NCBI GenBank assembly: GCA_015064585.1
Contig: SVRY01000011.1
Location: forward strand, 1-64,000
DNA length: 64,000 bases
Reading direction: 5' to 3'
DNA from: Oscillospiraceae bacterium
Lineage (GTDB): Bacteria > Bacillota > Clostridia > Oscillospirales > CAG-272
Of the stretch, positions 2,923 through 58,784 are shown piece after piece. Both the position numbers and the translations under genes were made by a program. Each line of letters opens with the position of its first letter. The first letter of the stretch is position 1. Below the pieces are notes generated by a model. The model saw only the letters and a list, made by a program, of their open reading frames with translations. It was not told where the DNA came from and ran no database searches.

Positions 2923-3816
2923 ATGAAAATAACTTCTGTTATCTTTCTCGTCGTCGGCATTGTCATTTCCATCACAGGCTATATTCTCTGCAGTATTGCC
3001 GAGGGTATTGCAAAAGATGCGGGTGAATATGACCAGCTCTTTGAATACAGTTACGACGATGAGGGAAACATAGTCAACGAATTCGGTTTTTCCAAAGACG
3101 CCATGGTCGAGATTGACGAAGACGGCAATGAGATCAAAAAAAGCGCTGTGCGCAAAACCTCGTTGATCTTTAAAGATACCGATATTTTGGTTTTAGGCGG
3201 TGCAGAACGCTCCCGTGTTGTATTCCAAAACATGATGGAGGGGCGCTACACCTACCACATCAGCAACAACGCTCTGTATATGACCAACCAACCTGCTATC
3301 ACAGACATCCTGCAGTCCGAAGGCTTGCGATTTGACGGGCTTCGCAAATTTTTAAACATGAGCAAATACAATGGCGAACCCAAAGTCATTTTGTATATTT
3401 CCGATGCCGATGACCTCAAGCAGTACGACTTTGAGTTGACAAACTGTACTCTGCAAATGGTAAACATTGTGGGTTCTTACGATATGCGTCTAACTGCCAC
3501 AGATTCCACCATTTCCATGACCAACTGCACCACAGCCTCCACCATGCGTCTTGATCTAACCAATTGCAATACCACCCTTGAAACTGTAGATTATACCGAG
3601 CTTTTGATCCAAGGATCGGGCGGCGAACTGCGCTATGACGATACCGCCATTGCCTACCTGTTCCGTTACGACATCTCTTCCGAAGGCGGCAGTTTAAACT
3701 TGAACGGTATTGACCAAGAGCTTCCCAGTTACACAGCAAACCTATCAGGCGAAGATTTCCATTCCATGTCTTTGCACATGACAGGCACAAAACTCACCAT
3801 TCTCTGCAGCGGTTAA
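2923..3816 (+). CDS. Membrane-anchored adhesin-like protein (DUF4097-like)
   Basis: A 297-aa protein with an N-terminal hydrophobic anchor (residues ~3-25, SVIFLVVGIVISITGYIL) and an extracytoplasmic part rich in Asp, Asn, Thr and Ser. Repeated short strands such as TDSTISMTNCTTASTM and LDLTNCNTTLE suggest a beta-helix or beta-sandwich of the DUF4097 type. The GAAAGGAG site at the end of the DUF1700 gene sets the start at 2923, 14 bp after that gene's stop, so the two are co-transcribed. The function is not known. Confidence 0.6.
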   Translation: MKITSVIFLVVGIVISITGYILCSIAEGIAKDAGEYDQLFEYSYDDEGNIVNEFGFSKDAMVEIDEDGNEIKKSAVRKTSLIFKDTDILVLGGAERSRVVFQNMMEGRYTYHISNNALYMTNQPAITDILQSEGLRFDGLRKFLNMSKYNGEPKVILYISDADDLKQYDFELTNCTLQMVNIVGSYDMRLTATDSTISMTNCTTASTMRLDLTNCNTTLETVDYTELLIQGSGGELRYDDTAIAYLFRYDISSEGGSLNLNGIDQELPSYTANLSGEDFHSMSLHMTGTKLTILCSG

Positions 3817-3854
3817 ATTTTTGCATATAATATCACTTCCTGTGCATACTACAA

Positions 3855-3887
3855 GTGTTCTCACTTGTCTAGAACAAGCAAGAACAC
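3855..3887. repeat. Hairpin between the adhesin-like and DUF378 genes
   Basis: Two nested arms pair (GTGTTCT/AGAACAC and CTTGT/ACAAG) around a 5-nt loop, with one small internal loop. No T tract follows, so it may be a leader or processing element rather than a terminator. Confidence 0.5.
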
Positions 3888-3917
3888 AAAAACTATCTAG
3901 GAAAGGATATATATTGT

Positions 3918-4133
3918 ATGCTTGACAGGCTTGCACTCATTCTCACCATCATCGGCGGTCTTAACTGGGGCGGTATCGGTCTGTTCCGTTTTGACACAGT
4001 CGCATGGCTTTGCGGCGGTCAGACCTCCATCGTTGCCCGCATTATCTATACCGTGGTGGCGATTTCCGCACTTTGGTGCATTTCCCTCCTTGTCCGTGAA
4101 AGAAACGAGATCTTTGAATCCTCCGGCAAGTAA
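3918..4133 (+). CDS. DUF378 small membrane protein (YuzA-like)
   Basis: A 71-aa protein with two predicted membrane helices. The family hallmark GGLNWGG (residues 13-19) is intact, followed by a second helix (IVARIIYTVVAISALWCISLLV). The length and pattern fit DUF378/YuzA. The function of this family is not established. A strong terminator follows at 4151-4202. Confidence 0.85.
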   Translation: MLDRLALILTIIGGLNWGGIGLFRFDTVAWLCGGQTSIVARIIYTVVAISALWCISLLVRERNEIFESSGK

Positions 4134-4150
4134 ATTCATCTCAAATTGAC

Positions 4151-4202
4151 ATAATCCCCTGAATGCAGATATACCTGTCGGTATTTGCAATCAGGGGATT
4201 AT
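4151..4202. terminator. Long terminator-like hairpin
   Basis: An outer stem ATAATCCCCTGA (4151-4162) pairs with TCAGGGGATTAT (4191-4202). The interior (TGCAGATATACC against GGTATTTGCA) continues the stem almost to the tip. It lies between convergent genes and may serve both. Confidence 0.75.
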
Positions 4203-4224
4203 TGTTTTGGATATGTATTTTTGT

Positions 4225-4986
4225 TTACTGGAACGAAATATCCAGCTTGCTGAATTTTTCAAACAAAAGTTCATCATCCGAGGGAAAATCCGCCGCCGCT
4301 TCAATTTTTTTGCGAATACCCAGCATTTTTTCGTCTGTTTCGCATATAGTTTGGGCGCACTCCTTTAATTCTTCGGATATTGCCTCTTGATCGGGAATTT
4401 CCTGTTTGTATTTCATTTGATGCTCAAGGCTCGCCCAAAAGTCCATGGCAATGGTGCGTATTTGCACCTCCACCTTCATATCCTTCTTTTGTTTGGCGAA
4501 ATATACAGGAACTATGACGATCAAATGCAGGCTTCGGTAACCGTTTGGCTTTGGATTTTCAATATAGTCCTTTTTGGAGATCAGCGTAATATCATCCTGC
4601 TTTAAAAAAGCATCGGCAATCAGATAAATATCATCAATATACGGGCAAACGACCCGTACCCCCGCCACATCATGAACATTCTCTTCTATATTTTTCAGCG
4701 TAAACGGAATGTTTCGCTTGATCATTTTATCGGCAATGGCAGAGCTTTTTTTGAGTCTTGTTGTAATGGTACTGATGGGATTGCGCCGATAGCGCGCATT
4801 AAACTCTGTATTCAGAACATCAAATTTTGTACGTACTTCCTTAATGGCACAGGCATACATCATCATCAATTCCTTGTAACCCACCATTTTTTCCATTATC
4901 TGTTTAGCACTGTTATATAAAAAATCGGAAGCGTTTACCATTTCCTCGCTTTGAAAAACCTTTATGATATCTCTATCCATATTCAT
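4225..4986 (-). CDS. RelA/SpoT-domain small alarmone synthetase (GTP pyrophosphokinase family)
   Basis: A 253-aa single-domain protein with only the synthetase (RelA_SpoT) domain. There is no HD hydrolase, TGS or ACT part, as in YjbM/YwaC-type enzymes that make (p)ppGpp from ATP and GDP/GTP. The key motifs are RLKKSSAIADKM, DVAGVRVVCPYIDDIY, KPNGYRSLHLI and the catalytic EVQIRT, then DFWASLEHQMKYK. I chose ATG 4986 because AAGGAAA lies just upstream. A second paralogue lies at 17010-17663. It is unknown whether a long bifunctional Rel exists elsewhere in the genome. Confidence 0.9.
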   Translation of the reverse strand: MNMDRDIIKVFQSEEMVNASDFLYNSAKQIMEKMVGYKELMMMYACAIKEVRTKFDVLNTEFNARYRRNPISTITTRLKKSSAIADKMIKRNIPFTLKNIEENVHDVAGVRVVCPYIDDIYLIADAFLKQDDITLISKKDYIENPKPNGYRSLHLIVIVPVYFAKQKKDMKVEVQIRTIAMDFWASLEHQMKYKQEIPDQEAISEELKECAQTICETDEKMLGIRKKIEAAADFPSDDELLFEKFSKLDISFQ

Positions 4987-5176
4987 TATTCTTTCATTTC
5001 CTTTCTTTACACTTTTAGAGAACAAACACATTTTAGCAAATAATTATGTATATTTTACAAAGCTTATATTTCCAAATTGTTAAATTGATTCGAAACAAAA
5101 AATCAACCAAAACTCCCAAAGCCTTGATTGATTCTTGTTCTGAAACTGTCCGTAGGGGGGGAATGATGGATCGTAA

Positions 5177-5812
5177 TTATTCATCATCCTCGATATTCTT
5201 TTTGGTCACCGCCACTTTGCGAATTTTAACATCGGTTCCTTTGATTGCCTTGATCACGTTCTCAAAATGCATGATCATGATCAAAATTGCAGGAGCGGAC
5301 GCTAACAGAACCATGAGTAAACTCTGGGAATCGTACGCAACGTAAGCAACAAACACAATCGATGCGAAATAAGGCATAATAAAGCTGTAATTAACGATCA
5401 GCATCAAGATCGTACCGACCCCCAATACGAAAGCAAGTAACCACGGTTCGTACGCCATGATCAGTCCGCCAAAGGCAGCAAGCCCTTTGCCGCCTTTAAA
5501 TTTCATATAAAAGGGATAAATGTGACCGAGTATTGCCGCAATGCCGGCAAGCATTCCAACGTACGCCACATCAGGAAAAAAGTATTCCGCAAGTCTTGCG
5601 GCGGCAAAAGCCTTTCCAATGTCAAAAGCCATTACCAAAACACCGAATGCCTTTCCAAAATGCAGCATAACATTGGACGCACCCAGATTTCCCGTTCCGC
5701 TGTTTCTCAGATTCTTATTTTTCAGTTTCGAGATCAATGCAGCGGGACTCAGCGTACCCAGCAAATACCCCATCAAAATGCCCACTGCAATTCCAATCAT
5801 TGTTTCTTTCAT
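5177..5812 (-). CDS. plsY: Glycerol-3-phosphate acyltransferase PlsY
   Basis: An integral membrane acyltransferase that moves acyl groups from acyl-phosphate to glycerol-3-phosphate, the first step of phospholipid synthesis. It has 211 aa and at least five hydrophobic segments. The three PlsY motifs are recognisable: LLGTLSPAALISK, RNSGTGNLGASNVML (family SGNxGATN-like) and HIYPFYMKFKGGKGLA. AGGAGAG precedes the ATG. The C-terminus has a short charged tail ending NIEDDE. Confidence 0.94.
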   Translation of the reverse strand: MKETMIGIAVGILMGYLLGTLSPAALISKLKNKNLRNSGTGNLGASNVMLHFGKAFGVLVMAFDIGKAFAAARLAEYFFPDVAYVGMLAGIAAILGHIYPFYMKFKGGKGLAAFGGLIMAYEPWLLAFVLGVGTILMLIVNYSFIMPYFASIVFVAYVAYDSQSLLMVLLASAPAILIMIMHFENVIKAIKGTDVKIRKVAVTKKNIEDDE

Positions 5813-46435: not shown

Positions 46436-46984
46436 TCACTCGCGTATTGCAAAAATCGAAACCGTCTCCCCTTCTATAATATAAAGTTCGTTTGTGTCCC
46501 CCGCCGTTTTATATTCGACGTAATGGGTCGAAGTGCCCCAATGGGGGACAAAATGTACTTCTGTGCCGTCTTCCTTTACGCTCAAAATGAAGCTAAGCTC
46601 GGTACAGTCACCGTTAAGCGCGTCTTTTCCGATCTGCGCTGTATTATAAGTATTACCGCCTGCGACCTGCACCACGCAAAAACCGGTGCTTGCCTGCCCC
46701 TTCTTGGTCATCACCACGCTGTGATTCCCTGCCGATAAACGCAGCGGCAAAGAAAGATCGATCTCGGCGCCGTTTACAGTGATATCCAGGTCATAATTGG
46801 CAGACACTACCTGATTGTTGCCGCCGTTTACCGAACCTGTAAAGTGCGCGTAGGCAGTTACACCCAAGCCCAAAATACAAATTAAAATCAAAACGATCGA
46901 AAACGTCAACCGTCCCATAAATGCCTTTTCGTGCATTTTTCCTTCCTTCGGAATGAAAAAATATTCTTTTATCAGTTCCCGCAT
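46436..46984 (-). CDS. TasA/CalY-like exported protein, last gene of the surface operon
   Basis: A 182-aa protein. A basic N-terminus is followed by one strong hydrophobic signal (LTFSIVLILICILGLGVTAYAHFTGS) like those processed by SipW. A compact beta-rich mature region of ~120 aa follows, starting NQVVSANYDLDITVNG. AAAGGAGG seven bases upstream sets ATG 46984. It follows the giant Hint protein after 108 bp containing the third double-hairpin element. It is a probable minor fibre or matrix component. Confidence 0.65.
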   Translation of the reverse strand: MRELIKEYFFIPKEGKMHEKAFMGRLTFSIVLILICILGLGVTAYAHFTGSVNGGNNQVVSANYDLDITVNGAEIDLSLPLRLSAGNHSVVMTKKGQASTGFCVVQVAGGNTYNTAQIGKDALNGDCTELSFILSVKEDGTEVHFVPHWGTSTHYVEYKTAGDTNELYIIEGETVSIFAIRE

Positions 46985-47031
46985 GCGGATCCCTCCTTTA
47001 TTCACAAAATGTATCCTTTCGGCAATCAAAA

Positions 47032-47083
47032 GGCATAAACCGGTTATGCCCTTTGGTTACCCCCCAACCCTTACGGGTTGGGG
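47032..47083 (-). repeat. Intercistronic double hairpin, copy C
   Basis: Hairpin 1 is CCCCAACCC/GGGTTGGGG (47062-47070, 47075-47083). Hairpin 2 is GGCATAA/TTATGCC (47032-47038, 47044-47050). It lies between the giant protein stop and the last operon gene. The same arrangement occurs at 52740 and 54969. Confidence 0.75.
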
Positions 47084-47092
47084 AGGGGGTTA

Positions 47093-50000
47093 TTAAATAG
47101 GCTGAACATCAACGTCAAAGTATATATCAATCAGAGCGAGAATATCGTCCCAAGTAATATATCCCTTGCCGACTGCAATCTTCAAATACTGTGCATTATA
47201 CAATTCAAAGGCTTCTTCAGTAATCAATCCTTCAAAATCTTCGTATGTATACAGTCCGTAAGTTGCAATATCCTCTTGTACCTTTTCTGCAGAATAAGTC
47301 ATCGTATCGGGATCGATATCAAAAATATTAAGCAGTTTGTCAAGATAAGCAGAGGTGGAGAGAACGTTGTTGGTAAAGCAGGTCAGGTGCTGATAAGAAA
47401 CCACTTCATAAACGCTTGTTTCTTCCATATACTGCTCAATATCAATCAGCGTAATCGACGTCAACGCATCATTATCTGCATTGACACCAACAAATTGATG
47501 TCCGATAAATTCTTTTGCATTTTCTGCAGTCAGCGCAATATACCTGTTCAAGGTAGCGTCATAGAATACGTGCTCACCTATGATCTTAATGCTGCTTCCG
47601 TCAGAGAAATACAGCTTTGTAATCAATTCGTTGCGAATTTCTTCGTTGTGGTTAACAATGTAAGCAACGGGAACGCTTTCAAAGGAACCGGTTTGATGAT
47701 TCCATACAAGCAGTTCTTCGTTACCGGTCAGCGAATCTACGCGTACCTGTGTACCGTCTGCGAGGGTTACAAGGGTGTCGGGAGTGACGCAGCCGCCACC
47801 ACTACTCGCCTCTTTCAAAGTACCGTTTACAAAATCACTATAAGAATACTGTTTACCATTCTTATAATCCGCATAATTGAATTGCCATGTCTTGCTGAAG
47901 GTTAAGGTCTTGCCGTTGGGGTCGGTAAATTCATAAGTCAGTGTAACAGTTCTTGCCGCAGTGCTTGTAGAAACATATCCGTTGGTAGAGCTAATTGTAA
48001 AGTACATCTTATTTCCGTCATTGTTAACAACAACGGGCATACCGTATATCTGCTTGGTGTCGTGAATATAACCGCAGGTCACCTTTAAGGTATATCCATC
48101 CTTGGTAGTTACCCAGTAATTATTGGTACCGTTCTGCTTGCCCGTACTTGTAGGAGTCAGCGTAGCAAGATCAAGAGTTACAGAATTGCCGGCAGAAGTA
48201 TAGTACTTGATCTTAATGCCCTCCAGTGCGGGAATCGCACAGCTCCAGTCGCTATTTTTACTCTTTACAACCAAAAGTGGTGTGCCGCCGGTGGTATCTG
48301 CTACTTCCGGTTCGGGGATACTGGTTTTGGTTGCTGTCAGAATAAAGTACACCGTATATATTGGCTCTCTATCACTTACCGTCAGAACATACTCGGTAAC
48401 CCCAGAAGCGGTCAGCGCGATCGGATTAGAAGTATCAACAGCCGCTCCACCCGCTATATTTACAGTATAGGTCAGATTTTCACCGTATTTTTGTACCAAC
48501 AGATTAGTAAAGCTGAATTGGTAGTCTTCGTTATCCAAATTGACCGTCAAGGTAGATTCCCATCTGTTATCGCTACTGTCAAACACGGTTTCAAACACGC
48601 GGTCAGCGTTCGTATCGTTAAAGGAAATTTTAGGGGATGTCACACCCTGAGCAAATGGTGCAAAGTCTTTTACATCTATAAAGTCATCGGACGTACCTTC
48701 GTCATTCTTGTAGGAATATACCTTTGCAGATGCAATCGTATTTTTTACTTCCACAACTTCATACGGTACAGTAGCTATATCGGTTCGGTTGTCTTTCACA
48801 TTGATTTCTGTGACTCCACTCACACTCTGAGGAATATACGCAAATCCCAAATTCAAGGATTCCTTTGTTCCATCACCATCAAGGTCATGCAGATACTCGT
48901 TTTTCTTTAAAGCTGCCCCTATGATAGACGATGCCTCCGATGGTACATACTGTTGATAGGACTCATTGATCCAGGCATCCTGAATCAAGGTTCCTTCCAA
49001 AATCAAGGGCGTAGAATTGCCGCTTTCATCACATTCAAAAAGTCCGCTAAAGCCCATCAACGTTTTAGAAGTATCGTGAACGGTAGCTTTGAAGGGTTTC
49101 TGAATCAGTGTCGCATTGCGTAAGGTCAGACTCTGTGCGGAAAGAGCATGAATATTGGCTGCCGCGCCGCCGCTAATGGTGGAACCGTCTACCACAAGAT
49201 TACCGGATCTCAGGAAGATAGCCGCTCTGCCGCCATGGATATAAGAATTGACGATCTTGCTGTTTCCGTCAGCCATTACTGCACTTCTGACATTACCGCG
49301 TGCATCGTTAGAAGAATCACTCGGTTTTGCAGTATTATCGTTGTCTTTAATTTGGTTATTATATATAATTGCATACGAGAAATCGGGGCAAATGATCTGA
49401 ACATTGTCAAGTGTTCCGTTTTTTAAAGTAACAAATCCAACACCCATGGCATCATACATCACGTCACTTTTTGCAGTCATCTTAAAGCCGTTTCCGTACA
49501 AGGTATAGCCGTTCGAAACTTCGATGGTATGCAAGTTGACATCATTCAAAAGAACAACATTATTTTTAGTGGCACTTACTGCAGAGGTAGCATTGACAGC
49601 ATCTACAACTTCAAGATCCAAAGTGGTAGGAGCGCAATAGTTATCATCTTGAATAGTAACTTCTACAATACCTGTGCCGCTAAACTGAATGGTGCCCTTT
49701 GTCCAGTCGGAAGTGTTGGCTGTGTAAGTGCCGGAAGCATTTCCCTGCGTTGTTTTAACGGTAACCGTAACATTTCCGATTGTCACGCCATCCTTGGCTG
49801 CAAACAGCGAGCCGAGGGCTACGGAGTTTTGATTACCTACACGGTAGAAATAATCGTTTGTAAATTTGCTGTCGAATTTTACAACAGAGTCGGGTTCTGT
49901 AACTGTAATGGTAATCGTGGTAGGAATACAGAAATAGTAGTCGGTGATCGTGATCGTAGCTGCGCCAAGACCGCTAAAGGTTAACGTACCTTTTGTCCAG

Positions 50001-52699
50001 TCGGTGAGGTCGGCCGCATAGGTAGCACCGGCAGTACTGTTCGTACCGTAAACGGGAGAAACGGTAACCTGTACGTTTTCCTGCTTGATGGTTATATCGT
50101 TCGCAATGCCCGCCGTCTTGAACAGTTCTCCGATGGTTACGATTGTACCGGTAGTAAAGCTATCTTTTGCACCATCATCCTTATCAAACTTTACAACGGA
50201 ATCTGCGTATTCTCTATCAAGGATAGTGATGCCTTCAAAAGCATAATCTTCACCGTTGTACACAGGAATATGCTTCACGCCCCAGCCGTAGCCGGTGAAG
50301 AGCTGATTGAAGGGCAGGTATACGATCTGCTTATCTTCCTTCAACACGGTTTCGCCGTTAACGGTTTCTTCACCCGCATCGGTGTGCAGATGCTGTTGCA
50401 AAACGCCGTCTTTTTCAACAATGTGATAGCAGGTCTTGGTATCGCCGGAAATCAGCAAAAAGTTTCCTGCCTTTTTCCAAGCATCACCGCTCTTGATCTC
50501 GTCAAGGCTGCCTTTCTGTTCCAAACGGCTGAACTGATGGTCGTGCGTGTAGGAAGCCGGTGAATTGGCAACCAGTTCGCAGTAGTAATAGTCATTCCAT
50601 TCACCAAAGTGTACGGTACAGTCTTTTGCATGGAATTTGGAGGTTTCGGGAACGGTGTAGCCGTTCTCATCGGTAATCATATTTTTGTTAGTACCGATCA
50701 TCATACCGCTGTAACGGTACCAGTAATACTGGTAGTTACCGCAAACGTCGTTATAAACGTCAATCTGTGCCGCCACATGGCAGTTGGTCATATGGGCATG
50801 CCCAGCACCCTGGAACATACCCACAAGACCGCCGCAGGCAACGTCCCAAGAGCCCCAAAGTGCTGTGATCTTGTTAGAATTGTCAATGGTAATATTGGTA
50901 AAGGTTAATTCATAGGTGTCAGGATCGTTGCTGTTACCGCCGATGCCCACGATACCGCCGTTACCTGTGTTATATACGCGGGGGTTGCAGTCTACGATCG
51001 CGATATTTTCAAACGCAGCATTCACAGCATACGCCGCAATCACACCGGTAGGCGTAAATTCGCCGTCGCTGGAGAAATTTTTGACGGTCAGGTTCTTGAC
51101 GGTACCTCCGTTTACATATCCGAAAAGACCCATTGCATCTTTGTAATGATTGGGAGTGCCGCTATATCCGTCATTATAATCGCCAAACATTTCCCAAGTA
51201 TTTTGGTAGAAGTTCGCAATGGTGTGGCCGTTTCCGTCAAAGGCTCCCTTAAAGGAGGAAACGCTGCTTGTCACCTCGCCGCCGCTCACCTTATCATAAC
51301 TTTTCTCACTGTTATAATAACCGATGGGATAGAAAATGAGGTCGGGGTTGTTTTCGGCTTCACTATCGCCGAGGTTGATATCGGAAAGGAGCTTGACGGT
51401 CTTACCAGCAAAGGAATCCGCTGTTTGACCGTTCATGCCGCCGACAATGGCACCGAAGGCTGCCAGCTGGTCGGCATTGGCAATGGTATATTCACCATTC
51501 TCGGCAACATACCAAGAATAGTCGAAATTGCCTTCCCACGCCTTTTCGGTATCAGCCACAATCGCTACCTCGGAGAAGGTAGCCATTGCCAGCGTAACGT
51601 CACCGGTGGCAGGATCATATGTAAAGTTATTGTGGGCATTGGGGGAATCGGTTACCAGGCTCATGGGATTGGAAACGCCCTTTTCCACATGGTAAAGCTG
51701 ATAATTGCCCAGGTTCAAGCCGGTCATGAGGGCTCTATCGATCCAAATGACGGCGGGAACCGTATTATCTTGGGCAATTCCCTCTACGTGTACATCCAAA
51801 GAACGCAAGATCTCATCCTTGCCCAAAACGACATTGGCTTGGCTTTCATCCATTTCCAAAACCTTTGCGGTCAGCTTTTTCACACCGGGCGCCAATTTAA
51901 CACCTGCCGGTACGGTAACACGGACACTGCCGTCTTTGTTTTGCATGGTCACGCCGCCTGCAGGCACTTTACCGTCGGCAGTGGGTGTAACGGTTGCCGA
52001 CATTTCGGCAGGCAGTTCCAGCTCGGGGAAGGTGGCATTTTCGTCATACTTATCGCCAAAGCTGTCGCTTTCCCAATTGAACTGAGTTGCCAAAAGATTG
52101 ATGGAGAATCCGTCGCCGATACTTTCGTTCTGATATTCATTGCCTGCGTCTTCCTGCATCTTCATTGCCACAGCAATGATGGTTTCGCCGGAAGTGTACA
52201 GGGGCGACTCTGCCTCTTTGGGAAGCAGTACGCCATCGGAAGAAAGATTGCCTTCAATCACGCCTACCAGAGTGGAAACGGGATTCAGATTCGCCAGCGC
52301 TTCTCTGCCCTTTAAATTTTCGGTGATATTTTCAATGTAATATACATCGATCACTTCGGCAAGCTTGCCGATCACACCTTCGGGATCAATGGTCATGCGG
52401 TAACGGAAGGCAAGGCTTCCTGCGTTCACGATCTTAATATAGCGAACCTCGGTATAGCCGGGCTCCCAATTATCGTATGCAAAGACCGCGCCCGCACTGT
52501 CATTTTCCGCATTGTTCCATTCGCCGCTTGTCATGTCGTCGGTCCAATACATCTCGATGTCCAGATTACCGGAGGTAATGATGTTGTTCGAACTGTTTGC
52601 ATTGTCGGTAAACCATGCGTAGGTGGTACCCATCAGCATGGAAATACACAGCACCAATGAAAGGACGCTGTATAAAAACGAGCGTTTTGTGTTTTTCAT
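47093..52699 (-). CDS. Giant SipW-type surface protein with C-terminal Hint (intein-like) domain
   Basis: An 1868-aa protein. The SipW-type signal reads LCISMLMGTTYAWFTDNANS, followed by a TasA-like domain (~25-250). A GLUG/beta-helix section includes FKGAFDGNGHTIANFY. Two ~104-aa Ig-like repeats start at DSVVKFD residues 833 and 937, each ending PTT plus a valine-rich strand. A right-handed beta-helix and low-complexity regions follow. At Cys1637, after SSGGG, a Hint domain starts (CVTPDTLVTLADG), with block-B His in IGEHVFYD and a C-terminal block near YQHLTCFTNNVLSTS. GAGGAG supports ATG 52699. No sortase motif is seen. Confidence 0.85.
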   Translation of the reverse strand: MKNTKRSFLYSVLSLVLCISMLMGTTYAWFTDNANSSNNIITSGNLDIEMYWTDDMTSGEWNNAENDSAGAVFAYDNWEPGYTEVRYIKIVNAGSLAFRYRMTIDPEGVIGKLAEVIDVYYIENITENLKGREALANLNPVSTLVGVIEGNLSSDGVLLPKEAESPLYTSGETIIAVAMKMQEDAGNEYQNESIGDGFSINLLATQFNWESDSFGDKYDENATFPELELPAEMSATVTPTADGKVPAGGVTMQNKDGSVRVTVPAGVKLAPGVKKLTAKVLEMDESQANVVLGKDEILRSLDVHVEGIAQDNTVPAVIWIDRALMTGLNLGNYQLYHVEKGVSNPMSLVTDSPNAHNNFTYDPATGDVTLAMATFSEVAIVADTEKAWEGNFDYSWYVAENGEYTIANADQLAAFGAIVGGMNGQTADSFAGKTVKLLSDINLGDSEAENNPDLIFYPIGYYNSEKSYDKVSGGEVTSSVSSFKGAFDGNGHTIANFYQNTWEMFGDYNDGYSGTPNHYKDAMGLFGYVNGGTVKNLTVKNFSSDGEFTPTGVIAAYAVNAAFENIAIVDCNPRVYNTGNGGIVGIGGNSNDPDTYELTFTNITIDNSNKITALWGSWDVACGGLVGMFQGAGHAHMTNCHVAAQIDVYNDVCGNYQYYWYRYSGMMIGTNKNMITDENGYTVPETSKFHAKDCTVHFGEWNDYYYCELVANSPASYTHDHQFSRLEQKGSLDEIKSGDAWKKAGNFLLISGDTKTCYHIVEKDGVLQQHLHTDAGEETVNGETVLKEDKQIVYLPFNQLFTGYGWGVKHIPVYNGEDYAFEGITILDREYADSVVKFDKDDGAKDSFTTGTIVTIGELFKTAGIANDITIKQENVQVTVSPVYGTNSTAGATYAADLTDWTKGTLTFSGLGAATITITDYYFCIPTTITITVTEPDSVVKFDSKFTNDYFYRVGNQNSVALGSLFAAKDGVTIGNVTVTVKTTQGNASGTYTANTSDWTKGTIQFSGTGIVEVTIQDDNYCAPTTLDLEVVDAVNATSAVSATKNNVVLLNDVNLHTIEVSNGYTLYGNGFKMTAKSDVMYDAMGVGFVTLKNGTLDNVQIICPDFSYAIIYNNQIKDNDNTAKPSDSSNDARGNVRSAVMADGNSKIVNSYIHGGRAAIFLRSGNLVVDGSTISGGAAANIHALSAQSLTLRNATLIQKPFKATVHDTSKTLMGFSGLFECDESGNSTPLILEGTLIQDAWINESYQQYVPSEASSIIGAALKKNEYLHDLDGDGTKESLNLGFAYIPQSVSGVTEINVKDNRTDIATVPYEVVEVKNTIASAKVYSYKNDEGTSDDFIDVKDFAPFAQGVTSPKISFNDTNADRVFETVFDSSDNRWESTLTVNLDNEDYQFSFTNLLVQKYGENLTYTVNIAGGAAVDTSNPIALTASGVTEYVLTVSDREPIYTVYFILTATKTSIPEPEVADTTGGTPLLVVKSKNSDWSCAIPALEGIKIKYYTSAGNSVTLDLATLTPTSTGKQNGTNNYWVTTKDGYTLKVTCGYIHDTKQIYGMPVVVNNDGNKMYFTISSTNGYVSTSTAARTVTLTYEFTDPNGKTLTFSKTWQFNYADYKNGKQYSYSDFVNGTLKEASSGGGCVTPDTLVTLADGTQVRVDSLTGNEELLVWNHQTGSFESVPVAYIVNHNEEIRNELITKLYFSDGSSIKIIGEHVFYDATLNRYIALTAENAKEFIGHQFVGVNADNDALTSITLIDIEQYMEETSVYEVVSYQHLTCFTNNVLSTSAYLDKLLNIFDIDPDTMTYSAEKVQEDIATYGLYTYEDFEGLITEEAFELYNAQYLKIAVGKGYITWDDILALIDIYFDVDVQPI

Positions 52700-52739
52700 T
52701 GTCTTACTCCTCTTTATCTTTGTTTTACGGTAAGCAAAG

Positions 52740-52799
52740 GGCATAAACCGGTTATGCCCTTAGGTTACCTCCCAACTCCCGCCGGGGGGAGTTGGGAGG
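52740..52799 (-). repeat. Intercistronic double hairpin, copy B
   Basis: Hairpin 1 is a perfect 13-bp stem, CCTCCCAACTCCC (52768-52780) with GGGAGTTGGGAGG (52787-52799). Hairpin 2 is GGCATAA/TTATGCC (52740-52746, 52752-52758). It is placed between the 693-aa and giant surface genes. Confidence 0.8.
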
Positions 52800-52818: not shown

Positions 52819-54900
52819 TCAATGAATGGTAAGAATGCTGTTAGCATCTACGCCATTGGTGCTGTAACCTTCAGTGATGGTACATCCGGTGAAGGTTGCA
52901 GATTCACTGGAGCCACGGAAGTTTACAAGATTGTTTTCTGCCTCAAAGGTGTTGACAGTAATCTTGGTATTTTCTGCAACCAGATTAGCGCCGGTGCCGT
53001 TTGTAGCAGTACGGAAGAAGTACTTGCCGCAAGTGATATCGCAGTTATCAACGGTTACAGTGCCGGCGGTCGACTTGTTGATAAAGCCATTCTGATTGTT
53101 AACAGTGGTATCGGCAACATTCAGAGTATTCACATAACCGGACAGAGTTCCGCCGTTTTCAAAAGTACAACCGGTGAAAGAAACTGTACCGACTGCATTA
53201 GAACCCGAGCCGCCCAGAGTAACGTGGGTAGCATTTTGGAAGGTGCAGTTTTCGAAGGTTACGTTATTGGCAGCCGCAACTACGTACAACGCAATGGAAT
53301 CTTCTCCATTGGATTCAACACTGTTGGAAGCGTCAAAGGTTACGTTACGGAAGGTGGTGGTAGCTTTTGCATTGGTAAAGCCGTTTTGTGCGTTACCAAA
53401 GCCGTTTACGGTTACGTTACCGGTAAACTGAACGCCGTCCTCAGCCACAAAGATGAGGTTGAGAACATTTTCACTACCGTTCAGAGACGGCAAGTTGTTA
53501 TGAGAAGCACCTGCGCCAACTACACCGTTCCATTCGGGATACTGATCGATAATATGGTCAGCAGCATAGTTATTGGCTGCGAGGTTAATTACAACTTCTT
53601 TGTTCCAGAATTCGGAATTGCCTTTGAGCTCTGCCAATCTGGCTGCCAATTCAGCATCGGATCTGACAGCGTCAACACCAAAGGTGTGAGTGTAGGTGCC
53701 AATGATAATATAGTTACCGGTTTCTTCGTTCTTATTGCCGGTATTGGTTGCAGGATCTGCAGTGGTTTCATACAGACGCAGTTCAACAGTCAAAGTGGTG
53801 CCCTTGTTTGTGCCGTCCAAATCAGCAGCGCCGCACAGGAACTCAGGAACCCACTGGCAAAGCTCTTGATAGTTCATGGAGCCGCCATTCAACATTAAAT
53901 CCAGAAGACGAATTTCCTGCCCTGCAGAAATAGTCTCACCATCATTTACCAGTGCAACCCATTTGCCGTCATTATAGTCATCGCTAAATGCGCTGTAATA
54001 GCCGGCAAGTGCCATAGAACCGGCAGCTACATCGTTGTTTGCGGAAACAACAAAGTCTGCATGCCAGTATCTGTAGCCGCTCTTGACTGCTTCGTCATAA
54101 CTATCGGTGGTAGCAAAACGGAATGCGGTATCCAACTCGATGTCAGAATCAGGACCGTTCATACCCAGAGTGGACTCAACAGTGGTAGCGTCGATTCTGT
54201 TTACGGAAGCAACGGGAACAAATGCCAAACCGTCATAATATTCATTAAAGGAATCTTCTTCGTAAACATACTGAGTAGCAAACAGGTTAATACCCAGCTT
54301 GATTTCAGGAGCAGGAGTACCTGTCTTATGGTTAGCTTCGTTGCCAACGGTTTCGGGCATATAAACTACCAGAGTTACATACTCGGAATCTTCGTCAGGC
54401 AGAATGCTGCCAACCTTTACGTAGCTGCTAGAAAGCTTGGCAGACTTGCCAAATACATCTTTGCGAGCATCCGCACGGGTTTCATAAAATTTTTCGGTTG
54501 TGTTTTCAACTGCACCGTAGTAGATGTAATCAGAAAGCTTGAAGGTTTCATCTGCAACATTGGTGCCGGCAATCTCAGAATAAATGTTCACGTCCAGAGC
54601 ATACTTCAGAGACAGAGAACCAAGGTTGGAAACCTTGAGGTAAACCACTTGCGTGTGGCCGGGTTCCCACAATTCATCGGAGAACACGTTCGTTTCTTCA
54701 TCAACAATAGTCCATTCCTTCGCATCTTCATCGAAATATTCCAATTCGACATCCAGATTACCGGACTTGATGATGTTGTTTACAGAGCCAACGGAGTCTG
54801 TAAACCACGCGTAGGTTGTGCCCATCAACATGGATACCGAAAGTACCATTGCCAACAAACTAAGAACCAGTGCGCGTTTGGTTGTTTTTTTGTTTGTCAT
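52819..54900 (-). CDS. SipW-type surface protein with TasA-like and beta-helix domains
   Basis: A 693-aa protein. The signal VLSVSMLMGTTYAWFTDSVGS is nearly identical to that of the giant protein and is followed by NNIIKSGNLDVELEYF, the TasA/camelysin start. Residues ~50-260 form the TasA-like domain. The C-terminal ~300 residues have repeated strands (TFRNVTFDASNS, VTFENCTFQNA, VSFTGCTFENGG, TVDNCDITCG), the pattern of a right-handed beta-helix adhesin. AAGGAGG precedes ATG 54900. It is presumably processed by the SipW encoded just upstream and assembled at the surface. Confidence 0.85.
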   Translation of the reverse strand: MTNKKTTKRALVLSLLAMVLSVSMLMGTTYAWFTDSVGSVNNIIKSGNLDVELEYFDEDAKEWTIVDEETNVFSDELWEPGHTQVVYLKVSNLGSLSLKYALDVNIYSEIAGTNVADETFKLSDYIYYGAVENTTEKFYETRADARKDVFGKSAKLSSSYVKVGSILPDEDSEYVTLVVYMPETVGNEANHKTGTPAPEIKLGINLFATQYVYEEDSFNEYYDGLAFVPVASVNRIDATTVESTLGMNGPDSDIELDTAFRFATTDSYDEAVKSGYRYWHADFVVSANNDVAAGSMALAGYYSAFSDDYNDGKWVALVNDGETISAGQEIRLLDLMLNGGSMNYQELCQWVPEFLCGAADLDGTNKGTTLTVELRLYETTADPATNTGNKNEETGNYIIIGTYTHTFGVDAVRSDAELAARLAELKGNSEFWNKEVVINLAANNYAADHIIDQYPEWNGVVGAGASHNNLPSLNGSENVLNLIFVAEDGVQFTGNVTVNGFGNAQNGFTNAKATTTFRNVTFDASNSVESNGEDSIALYVVAAANNVTFENCTFQNATHVTLGGSGSNAVGTVSFTGCTFENGGTLSGYVNTLNVADTTVNNQNGFINKSTAGTVTVDNCDITCGKYFFRTATNGTGANLVAENTKITVNTFEAENNLVNFRGSSESATFTGCTITEGYSTNGVDANSILTIH

Positions 54901-54968
54901 TTTGTTTTTCCTCCTTATTTATTTTTTTTGGTGACAAACCATGTCGTATTTTCATACGGCAATCAAAA

Positions 54969-55024
54969 GGCATAAACGAGTTATGCCCTTTGGTTGCCGC
55001 CTCACTTCGCTTGGAGAAGTGAGG
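54969..55024 (-). repeat. Intercistronic double hairpin, copy A
   Basis: Hairpin 1 is CCTCACTTC/GAAGTGAGG (55000-55008, 55016-55024). Hairpin 2 is GGCATAA/TTATGCC (54969-54975, 54981-54987). It lies between sipW and the 693-aa gene. Stem 1 differs fully in sequence from copies B and C but keeps perfect pairing. Confidence 0.75.
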
Positions 55025-55035
55025 AAGCATGCATT

Positions 55036-55773
55036 TTACAATTGTTCTTCGGTTTTCTGCTCTGCAGTGGGGGCAGCTTGCTCCGTCGGAGCAGACGCCT
55101 CGCTCGCTGCGTTGGCGGCAAGCTGTTTTTTCAGTTCCAAAAGCTCTGCCATCATCTTTTGGTTTTCTTCCTTTTCTCTTGCCAGCTGATCCTTTTCAGC
55201 CTGCATTTCTTCCATCTGCTCTGCTTTGTATCGACGGAAGAGTCTGACACAATTGATGCCTTGAGAAAGAATAAGCAGCAGAAAGGGGATCAGAATGCAC
55301 ACAATATAACCGGAGGTTGTTTTGAGAAACACAAAAAAGGAACCGAGATTGGGAATATGCCCCTGGTATTTACCGATGATAAAGGGATATGTTACCACAG
55401 TTTCATCATCCACGCCTGTGGTGGTACCGTATGTAATAAACCCGCGGTCTCCGTTTGCATCCACTGTTACACTGCGGATTTTATGCGTTACGGTCTCGCC
55501 GTAGTTCGCACTGTTCTGGGATACAAAGGTGATAATATCGCCTTCTTTCAAGGTAGAGGGATCCACTTCCTTGGCAATGGCAATATCTCCTGCGTCAAAA
55601 TCGGTTTTGGACATGGAGTCGGTCTGTACAATGAAGAATTTATAACCGAATAGTGTGCGGTCGTTTTTATCAAACACATTCACCGAAACGAGCGTAAAGA
55701 TCATCATGCATACGGCAATGGCAACTACCAGCCAAATCAGCACGTTTTTTATAATATTCAATGTCTTTTTCAC
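55036..55773 (-). CDS. sipW: SipW-type signal peptidase I
   Basis: A 245-aa ER-type signal peptidase with two membrane helices (LIWLVVAIAVCMMIFTLVSV and YIVCILIPFLLLIL). The catalytic Ser lies in QTDSMSKTDF. The base is His, in ETVTHKIRSV, rather than the Lys of ordinary SipS enzymes, as in Bacillus SipW, which processes TasA. A ~70-aa cytosolic tail forms a coiled coil (AEQMEEMQAEKDQLAREKEEN) and ends in Ala/Glu/Pro repeats. Start GTG 55773 has AAAGGT eight bases upstream. It is the processing enzyme for the surrounding surface proteins. Confidence 0.93.
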   Translation of the reverse strand: MKKTLNIIKNVLIWLVVAIAVCMMIFTLVSVNVFDKNDRTLFGYKFFIVQTDSMSKTDFDAGDIAIAKEVDPSTLKEGDIITFVSQNSANYGETVTHKIRSVTVDANGDRGFITYGTTTGVDDETVVTYPFIIGKYQGHIPNLGSFFVFLKTTSGYIVCILIPFLLLILSQGINCVRLFRRYKAEQMEEMQAEKDQLAREKEENQKMMAELLELKKQLAANAASEASAPTEQAAPTAEQKTEEQL

Positions 55774-55801: not shown

Positions 55802-56347
55802 TTATTCAAAAAGCTTATTGGGATTGTTCTTTGTTTGTACCGCATCGGCGCACAAGTCAAAGGAAAGCGTTGCATTTTTCATTTCATTGCCTGCAGTTTC
55901 AGGGAAATGAAACAACACTGTCAACCATTTCTTTTCCCCGATGGCAAGGGTATCATCCGCGGCAGCAACCCCTTTGCGGTGAAGCTCAGCGGCTGTGCCC
56001 GACCATAATACCATGTCGCCTTCCAAAATTTTTATTTCCAATATGTCTTTGAGTGTACCTTCCACATTGCCGAAATAGATCTTGTAATAAACATCAAGAG
56101 TACTGTTATTTTCAATAAAGAAATCCTTTTTTACAGTCATTCCGGGTTCAAACAGAAATTCATCTTCGCGTATGATGGGTTCGCTGTTATTGAGATTGAT
56201 CTCAACTTTACCCGTATGAAATACGTTGTACTCCACAAGCACCGTGGTATATGCCAGCGCGAAGGTGGTTACAGCCAAGCAAGTTGCCAACACAATTACG
56301 GTAACAATACCGCCTGTCAATTTAAGGACCGTTTTATTCACTTTCAT
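55802..56347 (-). CDS. TasA-like exported protein
   Basis: A 181-aa protein with an N-terminal hydrophobic signal (GGIVTVIVLATCLAVTTFALAYTT) and a beta-rich mature part with TasA/camelysin-type features (KVEINLNNSEPI, FEPGMTVKKDFFIENNSTLDVYYKIYF, FHFPETAGNEMKNATLSFDL). Start ATG 56347 overlaps the previous stop by 4 bp (ATGA), with AGGGG upstream. It is a likely major or minor fibre subunit processed by the SipW encoded 28 bp downstream. Confidence 0.78.
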   Translation of the reverse strand: MKVNKTVLKLTGGIVTVIVLATCLAVTTFALAYTTVLVEYNVFHTGKVEINLNNSEPIIREDEFLFEPGMTVKKDFFIENNSTLDVYYKIYFGNVEGTLKDILEIKILEGDMVLWSGTAAELHRKGVAAADDTLAIGEKKWLTVLFHFPETAGNEMKNATLSFDLCADAVQTKNNPNKLFE

Positions 56348-57171
56348 ATTCTGCCCCTCTTTCGTTTCAGAATAAGGAGCAAAAGTGCAACAACCGAGCC
56401 CAAAGTCAGCGCACCATATTGAAGATAATCAACCGCGTCTCCTGTTTGGGCAGGGGGATCCAGGTTCTCTGTCTCCTCTACCCACCAACGGAAATCGGCA
56501 ATCAGATCCTTGTTTTGGTATTCATTGCCTACACTCGTATCCAGATAGGCAACGATTTGATAATACAGTTCGGTGGACGTGCTTTCTTCGGAATACAGAA
56601 CGTGATTTACCGATTCTGGCATATCCCGCATCAATCCTTCATATAACACCGCATCGGTATTGAGCAGTGTGACCCTGCAGTTCATCACTTCGGCAAGTTT
56701 TTCATAGCCGTGCCGCACCTCTGCGCGAAAACGCACCGTAACCTCGCTGTGATAATAAACCTTCACGCAGTAGTACCCGGTTTCCGCGTCTCCCGGGAAC
56801 ATATTGCCCACATCAAACGGAATGTTATCGCCTTCGTTTTTATTATGTAATATGAGTGCGCTTGCCTTGGTTTCAGCTGTGGGAGCTGCCGCCATGGGCG
56901 CACCGTAGTTCGGAATAACAGTATTTCCCGCCGCAGGATCCTTTACAGGCGGAAGGGTATCCTCTATGAGATCATCTTCTGTAAGAATATCCTCTTCCGA
57001 TTCAGTCTCGCCGCTTCCTTTATTTATGTAGTTATCCGGAATGGTTACCTGATACGGCTCGTCGTTTGCAAAAAATCGATACGCCCAAACGATGCCCAAT
57101 ACAATCACACTGATTCCCAGCAGTACCGACAGAATCACAATCAATTTACGCATTGTTTTTTCTTTATTCAC
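56344..57171 (-). CDS. Exported protein with sortase-like C-terminal anchor, surface operon
   Basis: A ~275-aa protein. It has an N-terminal signal-anchor (LIVILSVLLGISVIVLGIVWAYRFF), an acidic/Pro linker (~40-100), and a middle domain with TasA-like features (MFPGDAETGYYCVKVYYHSEVTVRFRAEV, VGNEYQNKDL). The C-terminus has a sorting signal: PPAQTGD, a hydrophobic stretch (GALTLGSVVALLLLILK) and the basic tail KRKRGRI. This would anchor the fibre to the wall, a TapA-like role (inferred). The start is uncertain: GTG 57171 has AAGGAGG 11 nt upstream, ATG 57153 lacks a site, and GTG 57183 is too close. No sortase gene is nearby. Confidence 0.75.
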   Translation of the reverse strand: MNKEKTMRKLIVILSVLLGISVIVLGIVWAYRFFANDEPYQVTIPDNYINKGSGETESEEDILTEDDLIEDTLPPVKDPAAGNTVIPNYGAPMAAAPTAETKASALILHNKNEGDNIPFDVGNMFPGDAETGYYCVKVYYHSEVTVRFRAEVRHGYEKLAEVMNCRVTLLNTDAVLYEGLMRDMPESVNHVLYSEESTSTELYYQIVAYLDTSVGNEYQNKDLIADFRWWVEETENLDPPAQTGDAVDYLQYGALTLGSVVALLLLILKRKRGRI

Positions 57172-57277
57172 GGATAACAACACCTCCTTCTGTATTTTTA
57201 ATAATTGAATTGTAACTTTCCCATTTCAAAAGCATGTCAGTTGCCAAAATGTTTTTACCCATTAACAAAAACATTTT

Positions 57278-57505
57278 TTAATACCGAACAAAAGGAATGA
57301 TCGAAAGCCAAAGTCTGCGTTTTCTTCTGATCCAATGTCTTTTATCTTCTCCTTCGGTTCTTCCGATCTCAATATTGATGGTTCTCAATTCTCTCATAAA
57401 AGCATATAACCACACGAAAAAATGCAACAGAAGCCCTGCTAACACTATGATGGCAACCAATATCGCTAAACCGTAAATTATAATTTGTTTTGCCACAGCT
57501 TTCAA
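57278..57505 (-). CDS. 75-aa membrane protein in the surface operon leader region
   Basis: A small protein with one long membrane helix (IIIYGLAILVAIIVLAGLLLHFFVWLYAF) and a basic C-terminus (KRHWIRRKRRLWLSIIPFVRY). The TTG at 57505 overlaps the stop of the upstream 35-aa gene (TTGA). GTG 57496 is an alternative, with AGGAG 11 nt upstream. I do not recognise a family. Its position as the second gene after the switch promoter suggests a role in surface assembly or regulation. Confidence 0.6.
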   Translation of the reverse strand: MKAVAKQIIIYGLAILVAIIVLAGLLLHFFVWLYAFMRELRTINIEIGRTEGEDKRHWIRRKRRLWLSIIPFVRY

Positions 57506-57609
57506 TTCTCCTCATCATCACGTCTTGTAATATTGAAAACACACATTGCAAAAAACACAACGCCGCCGCCCAACATAAATCCCAAAACAAACATCAACAC
57601 GTTCATCAT
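57502..57609 (-). CDS. 35-aa DUF3789-like small membrane peptide
   Basis: A 35-codon frame reading MMNVLMFVLGFMLGGG, then a hydrophobic stretch and the tail NITRRDDEEN. One glycine-rich helix plus a short charged tail is the pattern of DUF3789 peptides. Its stop overlaps the next start (TTGA), which supports a real coupled gene. The ribosome site is weak (AAAGCGGG). It is the first gene downstream of the invertible promoter. Confidence 0.55.
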   Translation of the reverse strand: MMNVLMFVLGFMLGGGVVFFAMCVFNITRRDDEEN

Positions 57610-57641
57610 CCCGCTTTCCGCCAAACTCTAATCTCGGCGCA

Positions 57642-57663
57642 ACATAATTATAGTTATGTTGTA
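57642..57663 (+). repeat. Left inverted repeat of the putative promoter switch
   Basis: A 22-bp sequence identical to the reverse complement of 57884-57905. It is itself dyad-like (ACATAA, 6-nt asymmetric core TTATAG, TTATGT), the layout of a tyrosine-recombinase crossover site. Confidence 0.85.
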
Positions 57664-57705
57664 TTTTATATGTTTACATATATTTGCGTACAAATACTGC
57701 ATCTT

Positions 57706-57735
57706 ATTATAGCATACTTCTTGATTGTATTGCAA
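57706..57735 (-). promoter_or_regulatory. Promoter inside the invertible segment, driving the surface operon
   Basis: On the minus strand TTGCAA (57730-57735), 18 bp, TATAAT (57706-57711), with an extended TG motif (TATGC) before the -10. Transcription would start near 57699, run through the left repeat and reach the first gene at 57609. Confidence 0.78.
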
Positions 57736-57774
57736 GAGGTTTGGAAAAAAAAACAGCAAAAATTAAATTTATGC

Positions 57775-57825
57775 ATAGCCAAAAAACCTTTTTAAAGTGT
57801 TTTTTTAAAAAGGTTTTTTGGCTAT
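57775..57825. terminator. Symmetrical 22-bp-stem hairpin inside the invertible segment
   Basis: Arms 57775-57796 and 57804-57825 are perfect inverted repeats around a 7-nt loop, with the ends reading ATAGCC...GGCTAT. It sits between the recombinase gene's end and the promoter and would stop read-through. Being symmetrical, it works in either orientation of the segment. Confidence 0.85.
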
Positions 57826-57865
57826 ATTTATTTTTATAAAATATTGTTTTAATTTGTAATTACGA

Positions 57866-57883
57866 TATAAAAACAAGGACCTT
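57866..57883. other. Right flank of the invertible segment (weak outward promoter possible)
   Basis: TTGTTT (57844-57849), 16 bp and TATAAA (57866-57871) on the plus strand could be a weak promoter pointing right. In AT-rich DNA such matches are common, so this is only a candidate. If real, it would drive the operon weakly in the flipped state. Confidence 0.25.
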
Positions 57884-57905
57884 TACAACATAACTATAAT
57901 TATGT
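57884..57905 (-). repeat. Right inverted repeat of the putative promoter switch
   Basis: Perfect 22-bp inverted copy of 57642-57663. The match ends abruptly on both sides (positions 57641/57906 and 57664/57883 do not pair), as expected for a discrete recombination site. It is 36 bp from the recombinase stop codon. Confidence 0.85.
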
Positions 57906-57941
57906 GATATACACTTCCAATCCGTCATTTTCAGACATTTT

Positions 57942-58784
57942 TCATGTGACAAGTTGCATATTTTCCAGTTTCTGTATATGCTCAGCTCCTGTGGTCATGA
58001 TATAAATCCGTGTTGTATTGATATTGGCATGGCCCAAAATATCTGCCAATTTGGCAATATCTTTTTCCAGTGTATAAAAGGTTTTTGCAAACAAATGACG
58101 CAAATTATGCGGAAACACCTTGTCCGGCAATACATTTGCCATATCACAAAGCGCCTTCATTTCCCGCCAAATATTGCTTCTGTTCATTGTTTTGCCTGTT
58201 TTGGTTACAAAGATCTCCCCGGAAGCAATATTTTCTTTCTTAACATACATCAGCAGTTTTTTTCTCAGTCTTCCCACAAGAAATACCGTTCTGGTCTTTC
58301 CTTTGCAGGAAACATCCGCTCTTCCGCTTTTTAACGCCTCCACCGTAATATACCTTAGTTCGCTCACGCGGATTCCGGTTGCGCAAATGCATTGGATCAC
58401 CAAAGACAATCTGTCGTTACCTTTGCTTTCAGCTGTTTGGATCAATCGGATATATTCGTCTTTTCCCAATTCTTTTTCAATTGAACAGTATACTTTTTTC
58501 TGCACCCGATACTGTTTCACGCAGAATTCCTGCCAACCTGCAAAACGCAAAAACGAATTCATTGCCGCCAGCATTGAATTCGCGCTGGAAACAGTATACT
58601 TCTCAGTCAACTCTGCTTTATAGGCAAGCGTCAGCGATTTATCGATAATTCTGTCTTTTGCATATGCGGCAAAATAGCATACATCCCGCATATACTTTGC
58701 CACAGTCGCCGAACTCTTTTCATCATCCTTTAAGTGTTGGCAGTATTTTTCGATTATTGTCTTTGTAATTCTTTTTTCTTTCAT
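57942..58784 (-). CDS. Tyrosine recombinase (probable DNA invertase of the promoter switch)
   Basis: A 280-aa tyrosine recombinase with an N-terminal core-binding (SAM-like) domain (~1-95) and a catalytic domain (~105-275). All catalytic residues are visible: Arg139 (ATGIRVSELR), a Lys at about 163 (CKGKTRT), His226 and Arg229 (HNLRH), His252 (LGHANINTT) and Tyr261 (RIYIM). The size fits XerC/D and stand-alone invertases such as RecV, with no phage-type N-terminal arm domain. GAGG five bases upstream supports ATG 58784. Its gene reads toward the inverted repeats, and the internal hairpin would end its transcript. Confidence 0.93.
   Translation of the reverse strand: MKEKRITKTIIEKYCQHLKDDEKSSATVAKYMRDVCYFAAYAKDRIIDKSLTLAYKAELTEKYTVSSANSMLAAMNSFLRFAGWQEFCVKQYRVQKKVYCSIEKELGKDEYIRLIQTAESKGNDRLSLVIQCICATGIRVSELRYITVEALKSGRADVSCKGKTRTVFLVGRLRKKLLMYVKKENIASGEIFVTKTGKTMNRSNIWREMKALCDMANVLPDKVFPHNLRHLFAKTFYTLEKDIAKLADILGHANINTTRIYIMTTGAEHIQKLENMQLVT

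Follow-up and report, generated by a model that had tools for sequence, protein, structure and literature searches.

In Bacillus, the matrix operons tapA-sipW-tasA and sipW-calY combine a SipW-type signal peptidase with TasA/camelysin-like fibre proteins and are controlled by repressors such as SinR rather than by DNA inversion. The operon described here has TasA/camelysin-like proteins in common with them, together with a putative SipW-type signal peptidase. Our search of the literature found no paper joining DNA inversion with TasA, camelysin or SipW. An earlier sequence-only reading of this DNA knew of no described switch with such a target. A surface-fibre operon is driven from an invertible segment at fimS of Escherichia coli, where, as here, the promoter lies on a segment (~300 bp) between inverted repeats and tyrosine recombinases (FimB/FimE) are encoded alongside; at fimS the transcript from the recombinase side meets a terminator whose action depends on the phase. 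Unlike fimS, the present locus has a single, larger (280 aa) Xer-like recombinase, which carries an N-terminal SAM-like domain and is encoded running towards the segment, has sites of 18-22 bp with a 6-bp core, and has a TasA/SipW-type target.

The sequence-only reading had named cwpV and RecV of Clostridioides difficile as an example of the same plan, but the match is poor: no promoter lies within the inverting DNA of cwpV, its switching is attributed to the formation of a terminator, and recV is located away from it (PMC2784873). Here, in contrast, the promoter lies inside the segment, and whereas RecV is encoded elsewhere and has several sites, this recombinase is encoded 36 bp away and has one pair of sites in the genome. 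It is the fim layout, not that of cwpV, that fits. Inversions are common in Clostridia (PMC5903667). Compared by description, the closest published system is inverton group 139, linked in 2025 to invertase group 35 in Clostridia of the hCom2 community, in which a tyrosine-type recombinase likewise lies beside a short invertible segment (PMC11892184). In its Clostridium sp. D5 example, 26-bp repeats lie ~205 bp apart by the printed coordinates and orientation shifted between passages; judged by the main text, which prints neither repeat nor recombinase sequences, this geometry is compatible with ours, and the present switch may belong to that group (PMC11892184). The main text on this group does not mention TasA, camelysin or SipW (PMC11892184). 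We conclude that the general switch type is known from fimS, that the target appears to be new, and that the family to which the switch belongs is large and little described.

The window (the whole stretch of 64,000 nucleotides that was analysed) contains a 264-bp segment that is, very probably, an invertible promoter that the neighbouring XerC/D-like tyrosine recombinase flips, switching a TasA/SipW operon. The segment is bounded by two 22-nt arms, the left site on the operon side (57642-57663) and the right site on the recombinase side (57884-57905), which are 100% complementary, each being the reverse complement of the other, and which hold the core TTATAG in the pattern ACATAA-N6-TTATGT. 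Between them lies a spacer of 220 bp (57664-57883), the counterparts of which in relatives are found in both orientations. At 22 bp, this is the longest perfect inverted repeat with a spacing of 60-700 bp in the whole 64-kb window; the best repeat in dinucleotide shuffles of the whole window (n=60) was 15 bp, and local 1-kb shuffles reached at most 16 bp and never attained 22 bp (0/1000), so the repeats are well beyond chance. Perfect 22-bp repeats around 220 bp, and an arm-core-arm layout, had been claimed from the sequence alone; both are borne out, the second by a profile of 170 sites in which ACATAA-N6-TTATGT is kept. The claim that the segment is free of genes also stands, as the sole open reading frame of at least 60 aa that enters it, a 101-aa plus-strand frame (57490-57795), has no relative among the 60 loci compared. 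A search for the 22-bp site elsewhere had been proposed, and we ran it: the 2.39-Mb genome contains no further copy with its own core at up to two mismatches, and no further ACATAA-N6-TTATGT with any core, and hence no trans targets. A 31-bp A/T-rich stretch of the segment (57747-57777) has a 90% match at G000:C6:6259-6289, which is probably due to chance.

The recombinase (57942-58784, minus strand) is a protein of 280 aa with SAM-like and Phage_integrase domains. Its gene runs from 58784 to 57942, towards the segment, and stops 36 bp from the right repeat; the reading frame, the domains and the conserved catalytic residues confirm that a complete tyrosine recombinase is encoded just outside the segment. 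The residues in question are R139, K161/K163, H226, R229, H252 and Y261, and the catalytic set R, K, H, R, H, Y is invariant across 112 homologs. The best relatives with a solved structure are XerC-like, XerD, XerA and XerH, and models of tyrosine-type DNA invertases match weakly (NF007370, E 1e-4). When the recombinase was used as a query against genome contigs, a single, distant match was obtained.

Both elements that had been noted inside the segment, a minus-strand promoter and a hairpin, were found. The promoter (57706-57735, minus strand) matches the sigma-A consensus as TTGCAA-18-TATAAT with TG before the -10 element; all promoter calls in this work are matches to consensus. In the assembled orientation it faces the operon, as expected of the ON state to which the assembly had been assigned, and both here and in relatives the promoter within the segment faces a gene in one orientation only. 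A second promoter-like match (TTGAAA-17-TATAAT, 11/12; 57477-57505, minus strand) is located beyond the segment, within the second small open reading frame of the operon, and may be a source of leakage in the OFF state or a chance match. The long hairpin (57777-57823, 20 pairs) has its T-rich tail on the plus strand as assembled and, in the ON orientation, lies between the recombinase gene and the promoter; its fold greatly exceeds those of shuffled sequences in stability (z about -12). Strong hairpins are also present in L039, L046, L058 and L062. Of 14 strong hairpins, 11 carry the T-rich tail on the side that inversion would turn towards the operon, 1 carries it on the opposite side and 2 are tied, but among the 77 hairpins of at least 10 pairs the bias is not clear (36 versus 30). 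The simplest reading, drawn from few loci, is that the hairpin may act as a terminator, which in the OFF state would keep transcripts of the recombinase gene from leaking into the operon.

The presumed operon consists of eight minus-strand open reading frames that extend leftward down to 46436. The first, which starts at 57609, 32 bp from the left repeat, encodes a membrane peptide of 35 aa (57502-57609) that resembles DUF3789 in a sub-threshold Pfam match; it is followed by a 75-aa frame with a TTG start and a membrane segment (57278-57505) and by an exported or anchored protein of 279 aa (56344-57183), which has a counterpart in the operon of the switch-less genome G007. Next come a TasA/camelysin-like protein of 181 aa (55802-56347, Peptidase_M73), a putative SipW-type signal peptidase I of 245 aa (55036-55773, TIGR02228) and two further TasA/camelysin-like proteins, of 693 aa (52819-54900, Peptidase_M73) and 1883 aa (47093-52744), the latter with a SipW-type signal (TIGR04088) and a weak C-terminal Hint match. 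The last frame, of 197 aa (46436-47029), has a hydrophobic N-terminal segment. Three of the proteins are above the Pfam cut-off for Peptidase_M73 (camelysin/TasA). The peptidase scores 64.8 against TIGR02228 (cut-off 51.85) and 70.8 against the SipW equivalog NF046067, which is below the cut-off of 190. The earlier description of eight surface genes is therefore supported in part: models support the three M73/TasA-like proteins and the one SipW-type peptidase, and the others are small or without assignment. No relative of the 693-aa protein was found among solved structures, and no known RNA element from Rfam was found in the operon region. A hairpin element, AACCAAAGGGCATAA ... TTATGCCTTTTGATT, occurs in varied copies just before the last three genes of the operon (54961-54995, 52732-52766 and 47024-47058), and further near matches to the half-element in the genome resemble background; such elements between structural genes could serve mRNA processing or attenuation.

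The arrangement is not confined to this genome. Recombinase homologs are common in the same GTDB family, and at E 1e-30 or better 70 of the 391 genomes sampled from the class contain one, as do 8 of the 299 from the phylum. We analysed 100 loci from the family together with 38 shorter loci from the class and phylum searches. An inverted site pair lies just 3' of a homologous recombinase in 116 loci (the window included, and one probably a duplicate), and all share a layout in which the recombinase gene is followed by two inverted ACATAA-N6-TTATGT sites, usually enclosing a segment of 240-300 bp. Most of the loci without a site pair are truncated by a contig end, and some have distant recombinases with other arms. 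The profile of 170 sites reads ACATAA-Y-N4-R-TTATGT and extends more weakly to TACA and TGTA; the inner extension, on the segment side, is better conserved than the outer one. A search of 196 genomes with the bare two-site pattern returned 26 pairs, and the reversed-pattern control none; 24 of the 26 adjoin a recombinase gene and the other two are apparently at contig ends. These counts support the view that the recombinase and its site pair travel together.

The 6-bp core is identical within a pair and widely different among loci. We considered whether the core is an address code that separates paralogous switches and rejected the idea, as there is no sign of avoidance: 62 different cores occur in 85 loci, and a core is shared in 2 of 33 within-genome pairs as against 1.8% between genomes. 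More distant recombinases are accompanied by other arms, namely ACATTA-N6-TAATGT, ACAAAA-N6-TTTTGT and AAATCAATATTTCGTC (L126 and L127 of G301; L176, L177, L180, L181), and site and enzyme appear to change together. In L044, L045, L046, L048, L050 and L063, extra copies of the site in direct orientation lie beside the inverted pair, often ~31 bp apart.

The relatives show that segments of this class invert. As a rule, a segment has one clear sigma-A-type promoter, ~73, 84 or 95 bp from one end, and of the 116 loci 37 have it directed away from the recombinase and 74 towards it, with 5 unclear, so both orientations are present among the species of the family. In 39 of 40 informative pairs, the promoter-based call of orientation matches whichever alignment of the segments, direct or reversed, is better. 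A natural inversion between sister species is seen on comparing L074 with L079, which come from separate species within a genus: the end of the recombinase gene and the start of the target gene are nearly identical, and a good alignment of the segment between them is obtained only after flipping one copy, the break falling at the sites. On the recombinase tree (n=82), orientation changes 23 times, against a mean of 22.4 for shuffled labels; such randomness is as expected if switching outpaces the splitting of lineages. We suggest from these comparisons that the segment would also invert in the window's own species. Contig ends clustering at the segment were considered as a sign of mixed orientation and rejected (13 downstream versus 8 upstream, p 0.38).

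The geometry of the segments follows the DNA helix. Across the family, the spacing of the sites has a period of 10.6 bp, about one helical turn (R 0.52, against at most 0.35 in the null), with centre-to-centre distances near whole turns of 10.5 bp, and the distance from promoter to site has a period of 10.7 bp (R 0.67, again against at most 0.35); in the null, values were jittered by up to 8 bp, and none of 300 trials came close. Because related loci are not independent, the analysis was repeated with one representative per similarity cluster (n=27), and the periodicity persisted (2/500 and 0/500). The centre-to-centre spacing in the window, 246 bp, corresponds to 23.4 turns and is about half a turn off; several other loci are also off phase.

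We propose that the recombinase would bind both sites through the arms ACATAA and TTATGT, extended to about TACAACATAA and TTATGTTGTA, which flank the 6-bp core TTATAG. The sites would be paired across a short loop, strands would be exchanged within the identical core and the segment would be reversed. In the ON state, as assembled, the promoter (57735-57706) would drive the leftward operon of TasA/camelysin-like fibre proteins and the SipW-type peptidase. In the OFF state, it would be aimed at the 3' end of the recombinase gene, in antisense, and the terminator side of the hairpin would face the operon and cut read-through from the recombinase gene. The outcome would be a mixed population of cells with and without surface fibres.

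The protein belongs to the same broad family as XerC and XerD, and arm-core-arm sites serve integration and resolution too; the recombinase might on these grounds be a mobile-element integrase or a resolvase of the Xer type, the repeats being attachment or resolution sites with no promoter switch. We regard this as exceedingly unlikely, since the paired sites are inverted at every locus, lie a few hundred base pairs apart around a promoter with no genes of an element, and number one pair per recombinase, and since the segment is found in both orientations within fixed flanks. A different role for inversion would be to act mainly through the terminator, either in the manner of cwpV, which operates by terminator formation (PMC2784873), or by control of the recombinase transcript, and not through a promoter for the operon. 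The segment does hold a strong hairpin, the T-rich side of which reverses with inversion. However, in nearly all loci a single clear sigma-A-type promoter sits at a quantised distance from one end of the segment, the genes beyond the segment are oriented away from the switch, and in cwpV the promoter is outside the inverted region; we consider this role very unlikely.

It is also conceivable that the switch is real in the family but frozen ON here, with an inactive recombinase or sites out of phase, so that the operon would be constitutive. The spacing half a turn from the preferred phase would agree with this, as would the promoter-like match outside the segment, and there is one assembled orientation to go by. 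On the other hand, the recombinase frame is intact with every catalytic residue kept, several other loci are likewise off phase, and the repeats match perfectly along 22 bp, further than the 18 bp conserved in the site, which counts against a frozen switch because unused sites are expected to drift. We judge a frozen switch unlikely and favour an active invertible promoter in front of the TasA/SipW operon.

The genes downstream of the switch run away from it in nearly all loci, and they vary widely in kind. Apart from the window, 17 loci have a SipW homolog no more than 8.5 kb away; other targets include Big_3/MACPF, dockerin, cohesin/SLH/collagen and leucine-rich repeat proteins, M23 with C-type lectin, type IV pilin-like proteins and capsule genes, and a few are not surface-like, such as a pyruvate-formate-lyase-like enzyme. 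On the tree, the target type (SipW or other) changes 9 times against 15.3 for shuffles, which indicates that the target is inherited yet repeatedly exchanged. The sister species G007, the only other member of the genus compared, has the same operon with neither sites nor recombinase, on a contig that includes the start of the operon and the preceding gene. Among 29 strong SipW loci in the 196 genomes, the cassette is present in 11 and none was seen in 18, although for 6 of these 18 the upstream DNA is shorter than 5 kb and the absence is less certain. Related genomes that keep the operon and lack the repeats had been named in advance as grounds for abandoning the switch; such genomes exist (G007 and others), but they mean that the switch is modular, not that it is false. 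A wider proposal, which we advance tentatively and as somewhat short of probable, is that the recombinase and promoter form a self-contained, exchangeable cassette that has spread class-wide and come to stand before many unrelated surface operons, from TasA/SipW fibres and Ig-like or cohesin/S-layer proteins to leucine-rich-repeat proteins, type IV pilin-like genes and capsule genes. On this proposal its geometry is under a helical-phase constraint: with the sites, and the promoter relative to a site, at whole turns of DNA, synapsis across a short loop would be coupled to the promoter.

If the switch operates as we propose, TasA/SipW fibres, which are regulated matrix components in Bacillus, would be phase-variable in a lineage of Oscillospiraceae, and single cells would commit to a fibre-on or a fibre-off state. 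The same cassette precedes many other surface operons in relatives. An ACATAA-N6-TTATGT pair beside a recombinase would serve as a signature with which ON and OFF could be read from existing metagenomes, and the family would be a compact one in which to probe how site cores and helical phase set switching.

Some loci have further peculiarities. In L069, L074, L079 and L098, the first gene after the switch is helicase-like (cluster c9); the protein of L069 has ResIII, Helicase_C and helicase-associated domains, and in L074 and its relatives capsule-type genes follow the helicase-like gene. A CVTPDTLVTLADGTQV-type motif and weak matches to Hint (intein/hedgehog-like) domains are found near the C-terminus of both the 1883-aa protein of the window and a protein of L094 (E 0.01 and 0.04), and self-processing of such large surface proteins at Hint-like C-termini is possible. 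L088 alone has an extra long open reading frame within its segment: the switch segment there is 2.3 kb (3361-5681) and contains a reversed frame of 642 aa, probably a transposable element that inserted into the invertible segment.
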